Assembly (NCBI GenBank): GCA_016928395.1
Contig: JAFGKV010000147.1
Span: 62,001 to 126,000, forward strand
DNA from: Candidatus Fermentibacterota bacterium
GTDB lineage: Bacteria; JAFGKV01
Reading direction: 5' to 3'
Length of the DNA stretch: 64,000 nt
Both the position numbers and the translations under genes were made by a program. The notes beneath the pieces were generated by a model. That model made no database searches. It saw only the letters and a program-made list of their open reading frames with translations, and had not been told where the DNA came from. Shown here in pieces: positions 3,655-49,851 of the stretch; position 1 is the first letter of the stretch, and the number at the start of each line of letters is the position of its first letter.

Positions 3655-4308
3655 CTATGTCGTCGACCCAGAGAGGGTTTCCAGATGGCGCAGCAGGGAT
3701 GCGGTCTGTTTGATGAGGGCAGTTTTCCGCTGGTACTCAGAGCGGAGACGCGCGATGAGTCTGACGTCGCCGGGGTTTCTCCGTACCGCCGTACGTAGGG
3801 CCTCGATGGCACGGTCCACCGCGGCCACGTTCTTCCACACGGCCAGAGCCGCCCGTACCGCCGGTGTAGGGTGACGAGTCGTGAGGTCAGTGAGAATAAC
3901 CGCCCTCGCGGCAGAGGTCTCGTGTTCCGCAGGGTCAAACGCGGCCAGAATCGCATTGGCTGTGGGCGTATGGAGCCCGATTGGTGCCACGGGTCCTTGT
4001 CTTGCGTGATGCAGGATCCCCATGACGGCGATCAGCACCATGGCGGCGGCCAGCAGAGGCAGCCGCCGAGATGAGGGCATCACGCGGCTGGTTTCCAGGA
4101 TGCGAGACCTGACACGTGGCCATACATCGTGGGGAGGGTTCACTTCGGCCGGAAGGGCTGAAACCCTTGCTCGCAGGCTACGAAGGAAGCGTTCCTCTTC
4201 CCGGCATCTCTCGCACGTCTGCAGATGAGCCTCAACCTCGATGCTGATGGCATTGGCGAGGGTTCCGTCGATATACTCATCCATCAGATGGATCGGGTGG
4301 TCATTCAT
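3655..4308 (-). CDS. Zinc-finger anti-sigma factor, membrane anchored
   Basis: A 217-residue protein whose N-terminus carries the ZAS motif of group-ECF anti-sigma factors: His28, Cys32 and Cys35 in HLQTCERC. One transmembrane segment lies at about 84-100 (LPLLAAAMVLIAVMG), leaving a C-terminal part of about 115 residues, probably periplasmic, that matches nothing I recognise. By family, the N-terminal domain binds the cognate sigma factor at the membrane until a signal releases it. Its ATG overlaps the sigma gene stop by 4 bases, so the pair is translationally coupled and likely made at a fixed ratio. The cognate sigma is therefore almost certainly the upstream gene. Confidence 0.88.
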   Translation of the reverse strand: MNDHPIHLMDEYIDGTLANAISIEVEAHLQTCERCREEERFLRSLRARVSALPAEVNPPHDVWPRVRSRILETSRVMPSSRRLPLLAAAMVLIAVMGILHHARQGPVAPIGLHTPTANAILAAFDPAEHETSAARAVILTDLTTRHPTPAVRAALAVWKNVAAVDRAIEALRTAVRRNPGDVRLIARLRSEYQRKTALIKQTASLLRHLETLSGSTT

Positions 4309-4886
4309 CGTTCAAGCCTCAGGCGAAGCAGCCTCCGTGCCCTATGGAGTTGTGCCTTGGAGGTTCCCACTGAGACACCGGCAAGCTCGGCGATCTCATG
4401 GTGTTCATATCCCTCCACATCATGCAGCACGAAGACGGTGCGTGCACCATCGGGCAAGCTGGCGATAGCGCGTTCTATGTCAAGCCTGTCCGCTGTGTCA
4501 GGATCATGCGTGCTGTACGCTTCGATGCTGTCAGAGGCAACTCCCTCACTATCCGTGCCCGCATCAACGCGAGCGGACTCATGGAAGCGGATTCTCCCCA
4601 GCGATCGTCCGCTTTCAACAATGACATTGACCGTAAGACGATACATCCAGGAGGAAAATGCCGCGGCGCCTCGAAACGTCGCAAGCTTCTCCCACGCCCG
4701 AACAAAGGCTTCCTGCGCCAGCTCCTCGGCCCTGGTCTGATCGGCAACCATGCGCAGGCAGATGGCATAGACCCGCCCGATATGGCGCCGGTAGAGGCGT
4801 TCGAATGCATGATGATCGCCACGGGCCGCCCTTCCTACCAGAAGCGCGTCCTCAAGGCTTTGGAGCACGCTCATTCCAGGTTTCAC
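4305..4886 (-). CDS. ECF-type RNA polymerase sigma factor
   Basis: A 193-residue sigma-70 family protein of ECF layout. Region 2 is at about 25-95 (AFERLYRRHIGRVYAICLRM, then AEELAQEAFVRAWEKL). Region 4 is at about 135-190 (LPDGARTVFVLHDVEGY, then EIAELAGVSVGTSKAQLHRA), a typical helix-turn-helix for -35 recognition. Regions 1 and 3 are absent, as expected. It directs RNA polymerase to a stress or envelope regulon and is presumably held by the zinc-finger anti-sigma gene that overlaps its stop. It lies 42 bases after the PHP phosphatase gene on the same strand, so the three may form one operon. An alternative ATG lies four codons downstream. Confidence 0.93.
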   Translation of the reverse strand: MKPGMSVLQSLEDALLVGRAARGDHHAFERLYRRHIGRVYAICLRMVADQTRAEELAQEAFVRAWEKLATFRGAAAFSSWMYRLTVNVIVESGRSLGRIRFHESARVDAGTDSEGVASDSIEAYSTHDPDTADRLDIERAIASLPDGARTVFVLHDVEGYEHHEIAELAGVSVGTSKAQLHRARRLLRLRLER

Positions 4887-44241: not shown

Positions 44242-44395
44242 CGTGACGGACCGATGAACGAGAGGAGTCCCCGGTTCGTCTTTCGTGACTCCGTGTACGC
44301 CGGGCGCATTGAGGCTATGAGTCGTGACTAGTATGGGTAGCTTGAGGAGGACATGTGACGCAGTGTCGTGCACCAGGAGCATCCGGGGAGATTCC

Positions 44396-46747
44396 GTGGT
44401 AAGACGAACCCTCATGGTGCGTGGCGTGGTCCAAGGAGTGGGGTTTCGCCCCACGGTGTATCGGTGTGCCCTGAGCCGGCGGGTGGCGGGGTGGGTACGG
44501 AATCGTTCTGACGGGCTCGAAATCGCCGTGGAGGGCGATGAACGAACAGTTGCCGGATTCATCAGAGACGTGATCGATCATCCTCCACCGTGCGCTCGAG
44601 TCACGGCCGTGGAGATTGAGGATGCGGAGCCGGTTGGAGAGGAGGGCTTCACGATTCTGCCAAGCCTGACCGTCGCAGGCAATACGCTGTGCCCGGCGGA
44701 TCTGGCGACCTGCGATGCGTGTTTCGGCGAACTGTTCGACCCTCGGGACCGCCGGTTCCGCTATCCGTTCATCAACTGCACGGACTGCGGCCCTCGATTC
44801 AGCGCCGTGGTCACGCTGCCCTATGACCGGCCTTCCACCAGCATGGCGTGTTTTCCCATGTGCCCACTCTGCAGCGCTGAGTATCATGACCCGCTCAACC
44901 GGCGGTACCATGCCCAACCGAACGCCTGTGCCGAGTGCGGCCCGAAAGTGTGGCTGGTGGATGGGGCCGGACAACCTCTGGTTTCAGACGATCCGGTGGG
45001 AACCCTTGCCTCAATGCTCCGGCAGGGATTCCTGGCGGCCATCAAGGGCATAGGGGGGTTCCACCTGGCAGCCGATGCCACCGATGAAGCCTCGGTGGCC
45101 CGCTTGCGCCGGCGAAAGGGCCGCGATGCCAAGCCGCTGGCTGTCATGGTGGCTGACCTCGAGTGGGGCCGCCGTTGCGGCGTCATTGATGACCAGGCCG
45201 AGGCGATTCTGGTATCACCGGCACGCCCCATTGTCGTGGTCGATGCCGTAATGGATGGCCCGTTGGCCCCTTCCATCGCACCGGGGATCGGCACCGTGGG
45301 GATCATGCTGCCCTACAGCCCGATTCATCATCTTCTGTTCCGTGACCGTGCCCAGACACTGCCCCCCTTGGTCATGACCAGCGGGAATCTGAGCGACGAA
45401 CCCATCGCTATCGGCAATCGGGAGGCCATAGGGAGACTTGGGCGATGCGCCGACATCATGCTCCTGCACGATCGCGATATCGTGGCTCGAGCGGATGATT
45501 CCGTGATGCAACACCACCGGCACGGCGCGGTGTTCATTCGCCGCTCTCGCGGCCATGTGCCAGAGCCCCTGCCCCTTCCCTCGGATATGCCGCCCTCGTT
45601 GGGTACGGGGGCCTATCTCAAGGCAACTCCTTGCCTTGTCTCGGGGCGCCAGGCGTTCCTTGGCCAACACGTTGGTGACTTGTCGACCCTGGAAGGCGTT
45701 CGGTTTCATGCTCTGGCGATCGATGCGCTTGAGAGCCTCATGCGAATCACCCCGGAGGCCATCGGGTGTGACCTGAACCCGGATTTTCCTTCCAGTGTGT
45801 GGGCGAGGCGCCATTGTATGAGGGTTGAGCCCGTGCAACACCATCACGCCCACGTGGTAGCGGCGGGCCTGGATCATGGCCTGGAGCCTCCCCTCTTGGG
45901 GTTGGCCATCGACGGGACTGGCCTGGGGACCGACGGTTCGATCTGGGGGTGCGAGCTTGTGCTGGCGGATCGCGTGGATTTCAAGAGGCTTGGTCATCTC
46001 CTCCCTCTCCCTCTTCCCGGAGGCGATGCGGCCGTACACGAAACCTGGCGTGTCGCGATCGGGCTTCTGCATGCTTGCTTCGGAGAGGCCGCGCAGGGCC
46101 TTCTGGAGCAGGTGCTCTGTGGCGTTGACATTGCACACAAACGGCTCGTGCTGGAGGCGGTGCATCGGGGAGCCCACACGCCGATGCAGACGTCGTGTGG
46201 GAGGCTCTTCGATGCTGCAGCCGCCCTTACTGGCGTGTGCACTGTCGCTCGATTTGAGGCAGAGGCGGCCATGATGTTGGAGCGGGCTGCAGGATTCGGG
46301 GCATATCGCCACGCAAAGGCGCGGCCGTTTCCCATGGGGATGCTGGAAGATGCCCCCTTGGTGTTGGATCCGCGCCCCATGGTGAGGGAGCTGACAGGTC
46401 GGCTTTTGGCCGGCGATGGACCGGAGATCCTGGCCAGGAGGTTTCATGACACCATGGTTCACGGTCTTTCCGGAATGGTCATTCGGTGTGCTTCTGGAGC
46501 CGGGTTCGACACGGTGGTTTTGACCGGAGGGTGTATGCTCAACCGTTATCTCGCGGACGGTCTTACCCGAGAGATGGAGCGGGCCGGCCTCCGGGCTTTG
46601 GTGCCACGTCGGATTCCGGTCGGGGATGGGGGCATCAGCCTGGGCCAAGCCGCAGTGGCTGGCTGGCGGTTGAGCACCGATGAGGTTGACAGGGTTCGGG
46701 ATTCGGTGGGGGCTGAGCAGGTTCGGAATCGAGCCCACGCGGGATGA
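44396..46747 (+). CDS. hypF: Carbamoyltransferase HypF
   Basis: A 783-residue HypF with all four parts: acylphosphatase domain (about 3-90, VVQGVGFRP), two Cys4 zinc fingers (about 106-131 and 156-181), YrdC-like domain (about 190-380) and a Kae1-like carbamoyltransferase domain (VQHHHAHVVAAG, then VVLTGGCMLNRYL). It makes the CN ligands of [NiFe] hydrogenase with HypE. GTG 44396 with GGGGAG upstream starts at the domain; a frame from 44324 would add 24 odd residues. The C-terminus runs about 20 residues past the usual end, over a GGGTTCGGG motif. No other hyp gene or hydrogenase is in the window. Confidence 0.94.
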   Translation: MVRRTLMVRGVVQGVGFRPTVYRCALSRRVAGWVRNRSDGLEIAVEGDERTVAGFIRDVIDHPPPCARVTAVEIEDAEPVGEEGFTILPSLTVAGNTLCPADLATCDACFGELFDPRDRRFRYPFINCTDCGPRFSAVVTLPYDRPSTSMACFPMCPLCSAEYHDPLNRRYHAQPNACAECGPKVWLVDGAGQPLVSDDPVGTLASMLRQGFLAAIKGIGGFHLAADATDEASVARLRRRKGRDAKPLAVMVADLEWGRRCGVIDDQAEAILVSPARPIVVVDAVMDGPLAPSIAPGIGTVGIMLPYSPIHHLLFRDRAQTLPPLVMTSGNLSDEPIAIGNREAIGRLGRCADIMLLHDRDIVARADDSVMQHHRHGAVFIRRSRGHVPEPLPLPSDMPPSLGTGAYLKATPCLVSGRQAFLGQHVGDLSTLEGVRFHALAIDALESLMRITPEAIGCDLNPDFPSSVWARRHCMRVEPVQHHHAHVVAAGLDHGLEPPLLGLAIDGTGLGTDGSIWGCELVLADRVDFKRLGHLLPLPLPGGDAAVHETWRVAIGLLHACFGEAAQGLLEQVLCGVDIAHKRLVLEAVHRGAHTPMQTSCGRLFDAAAALTGVCTVARFEAEAAMMLERAAGFGAYRHAKARPFPMGMLEDAPLVLDPRPMVRELTGRLLAGDGPEILARRFHDTMVHGLSGMVIRCASGAGFDTVVLTGGCMLNRYLADGLTREMERAGLRALVPRRIPVGDGGISLGQAAVAGWRLSTDEVDRVRDSVGAEQVRNRAHAG

Positions 46748-46764
46748 GTCCGCAGTCAGATTGC

Positions 46765-46798
46765 GAGCACGGCAGCGGGACGGCCCGCTGCCGTGCTC
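46765..46798 (+). terminator. 15-bp perfect hairpin after hypF
   Basis: GAGCACGGCAGCGGG pairs with CCCGCTGCCGTGCTC around ACGG, starting 18 bases after the hypF stop. There is no T-run, but the stem is very stable and its place suggests transcript ending or protection. Confidence 0.75.
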
Positions 46799-46979
46799 TC
46801 CGATCCCACATCCTTCACCAGCAGGGTACGTTCAGGTCCCGTGCCACTCCACACCGTCCCTACACCGTGGGTGAGACTTGTGTTTGATGTGAGCACGCCG
46901 TACACTGGCTCTAAATGCTCCCGCTTTTATCCGCTTTTGTCCACAACCGTGGGCCTTTCTACACAGGAGGAAGGAGCAC

Positions 46980-47147
46980 ATGCCCACCTACGATTTCCAC
47001 TGCAGTTCATGCGGCAAGGACTTCAGCACAATCCTCTCCATTGCCGCCAGGGGTGAAGACGCCATTGTATGCCCCGCCTGCGGTTCCAAGAATGTCGAGC
47101 AGCAGTTCACCTCTGTGTCGGTGAAGACCGGCAAGAAGACCTGGTAG
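46980..47147 (+). CDS. FmdB-family zinc ribbon protein
   Basis: A 55-residue protein of the FmdB/zinc-ribbon family: MPTYDFHCSSCGKDFS, then IVCPACGSKNVEQQF. The cysteine pairs (Cys8/Cys11 and Cys31/Cys34) form a zinc ribbon. The family's role is unknown; the founding name comes from a gene linked to formamidase regulation. The ATG at 46980 has GGAGGAAGGAG within 5 bases upstream. The UGA-interrupted secreted protein gene starts 33 bases downstream with its own AAGGAGG, so the two may be co-transcribed. Confidence 0.9.
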   Translation: MPTYDFHCSSCGKDFSTILSIAARGEDAIVCPACGSKNVEQQFTSVSVKTGKKTW

Positions 47148-47180
47148 CACCAGGGCTCATCTCTTCGGAAGGAGGCCTCC

Positions 47181-48233
47181 ATGAGAGTGCCGGCGGTCTT
47201 GCTGTTCCTGTTTTTGGCGATGTCGGTGCAGGCTGCCAACGTTTTCGTGTATGATCACGACGACGGTGCCACGCTGACTGACCCGTTGGGTGCCGGCGTT
47301 GTCGGTACCCAATTCGCCGTGGTCCGGGCTCTGCAGGCATCAGGGCATCAGGTGACCACCTCAACAGTGCTGCCCACGAACCTGAGCCCGTATGATGCCG
47401 TCTTTGTGCTCACCGCCTGGGGTACCGGGTGAGGTTCGTGTATCTCACTTGAGCAGGCTGCTCAAGTCACTCTTATGAGCTACTTGGATTCCGGCGGTTC
47501 GGTGTATCTTGAAGGCGTTGAGATCGGCTACTATCACGCCCCAGGGCAAGCCTACAACTACGGACTCTGGAACTACCTAGGCACTCTCTGGCTGGGTGAT
47601 GGGAACTCCACGAACAATGTGAGCCTCGTGAAAGGTCAGAACGTGTGGTTCGGTACGGGGATGCAGTTCGGCTATCCCTACGGCCAACTCCCCGACTCCT
47701 GGGTTGACATTCTGGGCCCTGCGGGTACGGGCAGCGCGCAGCCTTTCGTTGATCAGACCAACCAGGGCCGGGTCGTTTCCTACATCCCGTCCGGCCAGCC
47801 GTGGCGTACCATTACCAGCGGGGTATGTTTCTGTGCATTCAGCGAGGATGCGCCCCTGTCTACCCAGCAGCGCCTGATGGCGAGGATCATGGGCTTCTTG
47901 CTGGCCGAGGATGCGATTCCTCCTGCGGCTGTTGTGGACGTAACGGCCCAGGTCGTTGGAGTATCTTTGGAGCTCTCATGGGCTCCGGTCACGCAGGATT
48001 CGCAGGGTAATCCTGAGAGTATGGATTCCTACGTGGTGGAACGAGGCACCTCACCGAAAGGGAGATGGACCCCCATCGGCGTCGCAGCGAATCCCGGATT
48101 CACCGACGGTGGTTCAGACATCGGTGATCCTGCTGTGAATAGCTACTATCGTATCAGGGCCGTCGACACCAGTGGGAATGTGGGAGCGGAAGCGCTCGCC
48201 GGCGAGTTCGACTTCGCTCTGAATACTCAATAG
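47181..48233 (+). CDS. Exported protein with in-frame UGA: candidate selenoprotein, or interrupted gene
   Basis: Two open segments in the same frame, 47181-47432 and 47433-48233, are joined only by a TGA at 47430-47432. Read through, they give 350 residues: a signal peptide (about 1-18), a flavodoxin/amidotransferase-like alpha/beta domain (ANVFVYDHDDG, YDAVFVLTAWGTG, then SLEQAAQV and SYLDSGGSVYLEGVEIG), and a fibronectin type III-like domain (about 250-345, SLELSWAPVTQ, YYRIRAVDTSGN). The UGA is residue 84, giving U-G-S-C with Cys87. Downstream is a SECIS-like hairpin (47447-47467). No frameshift is needed. Alternatives are a nonsense change (for example from GGA or TGG) or a sequencing error. 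RBS AAGGAGG precedes the ATG. Confidence 0.6.
47447..47467 (+). promoter_or_regulatory. SECIS-like hairpin downstream of in-frame UGA
   Basis: ACTTGAGCA (47447-47455) pairs perfectly with TGCTCAAGT (47459-47467) with loop GGC (or AGGCT if the closing A-T pair opens). The apical region begins 22-23 bases after the UGA, within the 16-37 base range of bacterial SECIS elements, and has G in the first loop positions. The E. coli fdhF element has a comparable AGGUCU loop on a GC-closed stem. Confidence 0.5.
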
Positions 48234-48601: not shown

Positions 48602-49357
48602 CTATCTCCTGCCCGGCGTTCCCCTTTCGATCCGATCGACTAGGCTCTTGTAGTCGTGCGCCCCTTGGGAATCAGGGGCGTACTCAAAAATCGTCTTTCC
48701 ATGTCCTGAAGCTTCGAGGATGTGCGCACTGCTTCTGATCGGCTGGCACAGCTGTTTCGAGAAATACGTCTGGAGGAGATCATAGATGTCCATGCTATGC
48801 TGCAGCCCCTCGTTGAGAAACGACGGGAGGATGTAGAGAGTGCCAACGGATGGATCGTGCGCGCCCGTCTTCTTGATCCGGTGGGCGAAGTCGAGGAGAC
48901 CCTTCACCGAGAGCGCCGCCATTGAAACTGGAATCAAGACATCATCGGCGTGAAAGAGCGCATTGACCGTCAGGGAATCGTAGCCGGGAGACGTGTCATG
49001 AATGACATAGTCATACTTCGGCTCAACAGGTTCCAGAGCTCGTCTCAGAGTCAGCACTCCACCGGGGCCATCCCGATCGATAGCCCTCCTCGCGTCATCC
49101 AAAGCACGACCACCGGCGAGCAGATCAAGATTCTTCCTTGCCTCCACGATGGCCTTGTCAGGCGGGAGATTTCCAGATAGTAGGTCGGCAAGTCCTACCG
49201 TCGGGCTGAGCCCCAAGAGCGGTCCGGCTTGGCCCAATGTGTCACAATCTACCAGAAGGACCTTTCTCCCTCTGAGTGCCAAGCCGTGAGCCAAGGTGAC
49301 GGCCGTCGTCGTCTTTCCAACGCCACCTTTCGTGAGGGAGACTGCAATCCTGCGCAT
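48602..49357 (-). CDS. Orphan ParA/MinD-family ATPase
   Basis: A 251-residue P-loop ATPase. ATG 49357 opens MRRIAVSLTKGGVGKTTTAV with the deviant Walker A (K-GGVGKTT) including the signature lysine; another in-frame ATG lies 6 codons upstream. Walker B-like YDYVIHDTSPGYDSLTVNAL and IPVSMAALSVKGLLDFAHRI follow the ParA pattern. ParA proteins position DNA or protein cargo on the nucleoid. There is no ParB, parS-like site or plasmid gene next to it, so cargo is unknown. It stands alone, divergent from the efflux regulator over about 570 bases. Confidence 0.9.
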   Translation of the reverse strand: MRRIAVSLTKGGVGKTTTAVTLAHGLALRGRKVLLVDCDTLGQAGPLLGLSPTVGLADLLSGNLPPDKAIVEARKNLDLLAGGRALDDARRAIDRDGPGGVLTLRRALEPVEPKYDYVIHDTSPGYDSLTVNALFHADDVLIPVSMAALSVKGLLDFAHRIKKTGAHDPSVGTLYILPSFLNEGLQHSMDIYDLLQTYFSKQLCQPIRSSAHILEASGHGKTIFEYAPDSQGAHDYKSLVDRIERGTPGRR

Positions 49358-49851
49358 GGTTCCATACCCTCTCATGCTCACCGAGAACGGCGATCTGAGA
49401 CTACTTGAGAACGGAGAATGACGGTTCATCTATGCACTCCAACTTCCGTGTCGTCAAGGAGTCATACCATGCCGGGGCGGGATCGGCCGAGGATCTGGAG
49501 TCGCAACGCGCGCAGGAAGGCCCGGGTGAGAGACAAGGGATAGGAGAACGCACATGGCAGACAGGGGTACGCGATGCCCCGCCGTCTTTCGATTGACCCG
49601 GGGAACCGACGTGGCGTGCCCTCTCTCCTCTGTGCTGCGCCCCAGGAGAGGCGTAAGGTCCGTTGTGATGCCGACGCGGAGGGGTAGGCCTGGCTGCATG
49701 AGACTTGTGCCGTCGAACCGGGGCTCAGCTGGCCTGCAACGAATAGGGCTGCCGGCTGGCGGTGGTACCGGACTGCACGCGCCGTGTTGTAGGGCGTCCA
49801 AGAGCTCGGATCGTATCACAGGCGGGCATTTCTCCCGACGGAACTCAGTCC
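49358..49851. other. Divergent intergenic region between parA-like gene and efflux regulator
   Basis: About 490 bases with no convincing gene. There is a repeated GAGAACGG near 49380-49417. The right end leads into the efflux promoter. Confidence 0.45.

Follow-up and report, generated by a model that had tools for sequence, protein, structure and literature searches.

Selenoprotein families are found mainly through their cysteine homologues. According to the authors of deep-Sep, Cys homologues now seem to exist for all known selenoproteins, and families that lack them may escape their method (PMC12013277). The catalogued selenoprotein nearest by fold to the one described here is the CTP synthase C-terminal region-related selenoprotein, a glutamine amidotransferase (PMC12013277, PMC13188914), and an amidotransferase-like fold class is common to both. 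There are differences, as its motif is GxUxG, which in our own reading resembles the amidotransferase nucleophile motif, whereas in the present family selenocysteine (Sec) lies on the loop after strand 3 within a CU, CxxU or UxxC motif and the proteins are apparently exported. Vicinal or near Cys-Sec motifs of this kind (CU, CxxU or UxxC) are also found in SaoL, MbdU and the UGSC-containing protein (PMC13188914), although these are listed under other domain models. Among proteins without reported Sec, the fold is common to ThuA-like/GATase1-like proteins (3rht, 4jqs, 1t0b), the GH42 middle domain and the IFT52 N-terminal domain, over 182–195 residues with Z about 15–17, but these are only 8–15% identical to the family and their chains lack a C-U type of loop insert.

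The gene described here lies in a window of 64,000 nucleotides, the whole stretch of DNA that was analysed, from the 4.79 Mb MAG (94% complete) of a Candidatus Fermentibacterota bacterium. It contains an in-frame UGA that very likely encodes Sec, a conclusion resting on comparative and not on biochemical evidence. The Sec domain has no significant match in Pfam or NCBIfam, none of 27 family members (0/27) matches an NCBIfam model over this domain, and a catalogue of 119 prokaryotic selenoprotein families/subfamilies (2026, PMC13188914) holds no fitting entry. The novelty check against the literature covered open-access papers only, and these contained nothing relevant on selenoproteins in Fermentibacteria, Cloacimonadota or Eisenbacteria, or on selenoproteins with T9SS. 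We therefore consider it likely that this family of apparently exported selenoproteins was previously uncatalogued; its lack of a Cys homologue in the sampled genomes would explain why it was missed. Other Sec-only families may lie undetected in candidate phyla under the annotation of truncated genes. In the present one, Sec occurs in apparently exported proteins, some of them with T9SS tails, and the family allows a direct test of why selenium would be required at a site and sulfur not accepted.

Gene structure and conservation of the UGA

The features of the locus, all on the forward strand, are as follows.

46980–47147, +, fmdB-family zinc ribbon gene (TIGR02605, 58.1 bits), 33 nt from the next gene
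47170–47175, +, ribosome-binding site AGGAGG, by sequence reading, ending 5 nt ahead of the ATG
47181–48233, +, very probable selenoprotein gene, 350 residues with the UGA read through (frame; constraint on both sides of the UGA against L022)
47181–47234, +, hydrophobic N-terminus of 18 residues, probable signal peptide (by eye; homologues alike)
47235–47912, +, predicted GATase1/ThuA-like domain bearing Sec (AlphaFold2 model; structure comparison)
47430–47432, +, UGA codon for Sec84 in the motif U-G-S-C (UGA at the same loop in 31 distinct homologous genes)
47447–47467, +, SECIS hairpin of 9 bp with loop GGC at 47456–47458 (covariation; synonymous shuffles)
47913–48230, +, C-terminal β-rich tail, FN3-like by eye only (no Pfam match; model pLDDT 47)

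The gene forms a single frame from ATG 47181 to TAG 48231–48233 (350 codons plus stop), the sole interruption of which is TGA 47430–47432 at codon 84, giving the motif U84-G-S-C87. Comparison with L022 reveals purifying selection, with dN of 0.13 ahead of the UGA and 0.17 past it, against dS of 1.43 and 1.20, respectively. Since dN is low relative to dS on both sides, both parts are translated and constrained.

In-frame TGAs were evident from the first homologue search, which met them in one genome of the same genus and in one distant genome. When about 85,000 species genomes were scanned with search patterns that lacked the Sec site, 25 loci emerged, 24 of them with UGA at the homologous position; the exception is L080 from Coatesbacteria. 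The UGA loci come from Eisenbacteria, TA06 SM23_40, Fermentibacteria/Sabulitectum/Aegiribacteria, Stahlbacteria/WOR-3 and Cloacimonadota. In the phylum to which the Fermentibacterota genome G155 belongs, 19 matches span the Sec site, and 18 of these have UGA there. Altogether, one and the same loop carries UGA in 31 distinct genes, that of the window included, which span at least five candidate phyla, and homologues with 29–77% identity over the domain retain UGA rather than Gly or Trp. Each of the 31 Sec genes has a Cys no more than three residues from Sec (CU, CxxU or UxxC), the motifs at the site being TCUG, RCUG, SCUG, WCU/YCU/GCU, CVGUG and UGSC. Cys homologues are customary for a bacterial selenoprotein, if not an absolute requirement. 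No Cys form at the Sec site was seen among the homologues examined, though the sample is limited and absence is not proof. No family match was found in plasmids, at the DNA or protein level, or in viral contigs.

SECIS hairpin and Sec machinery

SelB reads hairpins just downstream of such UGA codons, a mechanism established for E. coli fdhF. In the bacterial SECIS model, the loop lies 16–37 nt past the UGA and has a G within its first two positions (PMC13188914). We applied this as a G early in a loop of 3–9 nt, 16–37 nt from the UGA, above an upper stem of 4–16 bp. The window hairpin (47447–47467), ACTTGAGCA-GGC-TGCTCAAGT, meets these criteria with a perfect 9-bp stem and a GGC loop that begins at 47456, 23 nt from the UGA. 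When synonymous codons were shuffled with the protein held fixed, an equal stem with a G in the first or second loop position at an allowed distance was obtained 0.3% of the time for the window, and the observed stem was reached in 0.1–6.3% of trials for each homologous locus.

Every one of the 26 first-round loci shows a hairpin whose three-base loop has G first and starts 21–26 nt from the UGA. A comparable hairpin appears in the minimum-energy structure of four of five later loci; the fifth, L131, has the same stem sequence there, but a competing fold wins. In an alignment of the 26 loci anchored on the hairpin, 97.1% of stem cells are paired and six of seven pairs show double changes; the covariation score was reached by 0/500 shuffles, and sliding the partners abolishes the signal. 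Anchoring on structure is a choice that favours the hairpin. An unguided alignment, in which the Cloacimonadota rows are out of register, gives the same covariation result, but weaker. Conservation of the hairpin thus exceeds both codon constraint and chance.

The source genome encodes selB (342 bits), a tRNA-Sec (76.8 bits) with TCA readable in its anticodon loop, and two selD genes (L018, L019), one of Cys type (GLGCACK) and one with an in-frame UGA (motif GUAAK). No match to the selA model PF03841 was found in this 94% complete assembly; selA does occur in same-genus and same-family genomes. Among 20 genomes of family members, 16 have tRNA-Sec and 18 have selB above the cut-off. For three UGA members (L062, L079 and L081) no tRNA-Sec was detected in the genome, and for L079 and L070 no selB above the cut-off, possibly because these assemblies are incomplete.

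Most of the preliminary description, which had read the UGA and a SECIS-like hairpin as marks of a new selenoprotein, is supported by these results. Its claims of one frame cut only by the TGA at 47430, of the motif U84-G-S-C87, and of a perfect 9-bp hairpin with a G-starting loop at a distance in the SECIS range all held. Among the tests that it had proposed, these turned out in its favour: of the sel genes, selB, tRNA-Sec and selD were found in the genome and selA only in its nearest relatives; residue 84 is kept as UGA across the phyla above; and the hairpin is conserved and covarying among homologues. The outcomes it had named as refuting (no sel genes, Gly or Trp in homologues, no conserved hairpin) did not come true.

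Natural losses and alternative readings of the UGA

In a tree of the family, the 31 Sec rows cluster; a group without Sec (L080, L094, L095) falls among them, and there is a single nested loss. L136, sister to L064, is an intact gene in which Cys-Sec is replaced by Gly-Arg, with AGA at the place of the UGA, and the hairpin is lost; that UGA, Cys partner and hairpin disappeared together indicates that the three are linked as one unit. A copy in G002 (L055 about 4180–4700, C197) has decayed, with its N-terminal part missing after fmdB and AGA at the Sec position, and still shows the hairpin TTGGTCA-GGT-TGACCAA. Non-Sec homologues in secreted multidomain proteins (L094–L120) are matched by the family profile, but their loop is shorter, with PNN-like residues and neither Cys nor Sec.

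The UGA could be a nonsense mutation or a sequencing error in an ordinary gene, or the mark of a pseudogene, and the decayed copy in G002 is an instance of such a fate. For the window gene this is very unlikely, as the same UGA is present in 31 genes from independent assemblies, dN/dS is low past the UGA and the hairpin covaries. The caveat of a plain nonsense change or read error, raised in the preliminary description, is countered by independent assemblies that share the UGA. A different objection is that an in-frame UGA does not by itself name the amino acid, so that it might be read as something other than Sec, through genome-wide reassignment (Trp, Gly, Cys) or programmed leaky read-through. 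We consider this highly improbable too. UGA terminates 20 of the 36 long ORFs in the window, and therefore the code is not globally changed; in addition, the genome encodes selB, tRNA-Sec and a SelD that itself contains UGA, the hairpin agrees with the bacterial SECIS model and a Cys is always near.

The presence of an in-frame ATG 42 nt past the UGA would allow two separate proteins, the first ending at the UGA and the second restarting at ATG 47475. This also has very little in its favour, because the codons between the UGA and this ATG are conserved and part of one fold, and relatives with a sense codon at the Sec place (L080, L094, L136) are single continuous proteins. Insertion of Sec is instead supported by the conserved UGA, the covarying SECIS, the Sec machinery and the constraint across the UGA. 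As a proposal inferred from these parts, SelB with Sec-tRNA-Sec would bind the downstream hairpin, and the ribosome would for this reason insert Sec at UGA 47430.

Predicted fold, export and neighbourhood

The AlphaFold2 model, built with 27 sequences, has a pLDDT of 91.5 and a pTM of 0.91 and is confident across the UGA position, with the Sec loop as the least certain inner part. The structures closest to it are those of GATase1/ThuA-like proteins, GH42 middle domains and IFT52 (Z = 17.3 to 3soz and 16.5 to 3rht), and the Sec domain is accordingly predicted by the model to have a GATase1/ThuA-like fold; a search of solved structures by sequence gave no match to the family. From the order of strands, we infer that Sec follows strand 3, on the oxyanion-loop side of amidotransferases, and that an invariant Glu-Gly follows strand 4, where amidotransferases carry the nucleophile Cys. 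The Cys-His-Glu triad of class I glutamine amidotransferases, with its Cys at the nucleophile elbow, is not conserved in the family, which has no invariant Cys. PdxT, through which the catalytic Cys was to be located on the model, was not found in the source genome, so strand order is the basis for inferring that Sec lies elsewhere than at the nucleophile place.

Homologues with an intact start have a hydrophobic N-terminal stretch. T9SS sorting tails (TIGR04183/PF18962) occur in WOR-3/Stahlbacteria and Cloacimonadota members; L067, L074, L079, L076 and L083 exceed the TIGR04183 cut-off and L077 falls just below it. The N-termini and T9SS tails suggest that the proteins are exported, and to that extent the earlier claim of an exported selenoprotein is supported. 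The tails of the window protein and of the TA06 member are different, and no T9SS sorting domain was matched in the window protein, L024 or L065. The fibronectin-like domain also claimed for the window protein was not confirmed, as its tail has no FN3 match in Pfam and its fold prediction is of low confidence; against PHROGs, the tail gave only a weak tail-fibre match (E = 0.017).

The mature protein would thus consist of a GATase1/ThuA-like domain and, behind it, a β-rich or sorting tail; Sec would sit in the domain on a flexible loop past β-strand 3, close to a Cys (UGSC in the window, CU or CxxU in related proteins). The Sec/Cys pair may form a reversible selenylsulfide, or a selenolate/thiolate site that binds a soft metal, outside the cytoplasm. 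Such an extracytoplasmic redox or metal role for the selenol is inferred, is not supported by any functional test, and could as easily prove wrong as right. In a fuller proposal, the family would lack a Cys counterpart, be spread over several candidate phyla and rely obligately on Sec for its extracytoplasmic redox or metal site, at a position new to the GATase1-like fold; this is offered more tentatively, the balance tilting slightly against it.

The fmdB-family gene and the selenoprotein gene likely share one transcript. Upstream, 44324–47147 of the window holds hypF (by Pfam), with the fmdB-type gene in between, and a ParA/MinD-like ATPase gene (48602–49429, − strand) adjoins the selenoprotein gene on the opposite strand. 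A hypF-like end also lies 5' of the family gene in G001 (L054 1–951) and G002 (L055); in G002 the fmdB-type gene again sits between the two, as in the window, and precedes the decayed copy. In L043, at about 2200–2300 and near a contig end (G001 C220), the stretch coding QQRLMNRIVNFLLGDDAV is apparently repeated out of frame, which is likely an assembly artefact. TA06 SM23_40 has two neighbouring paralogues (L051 2477–3172 and 3970–4686), each with its own UGA and hairpin, and a third on another contig (L052).
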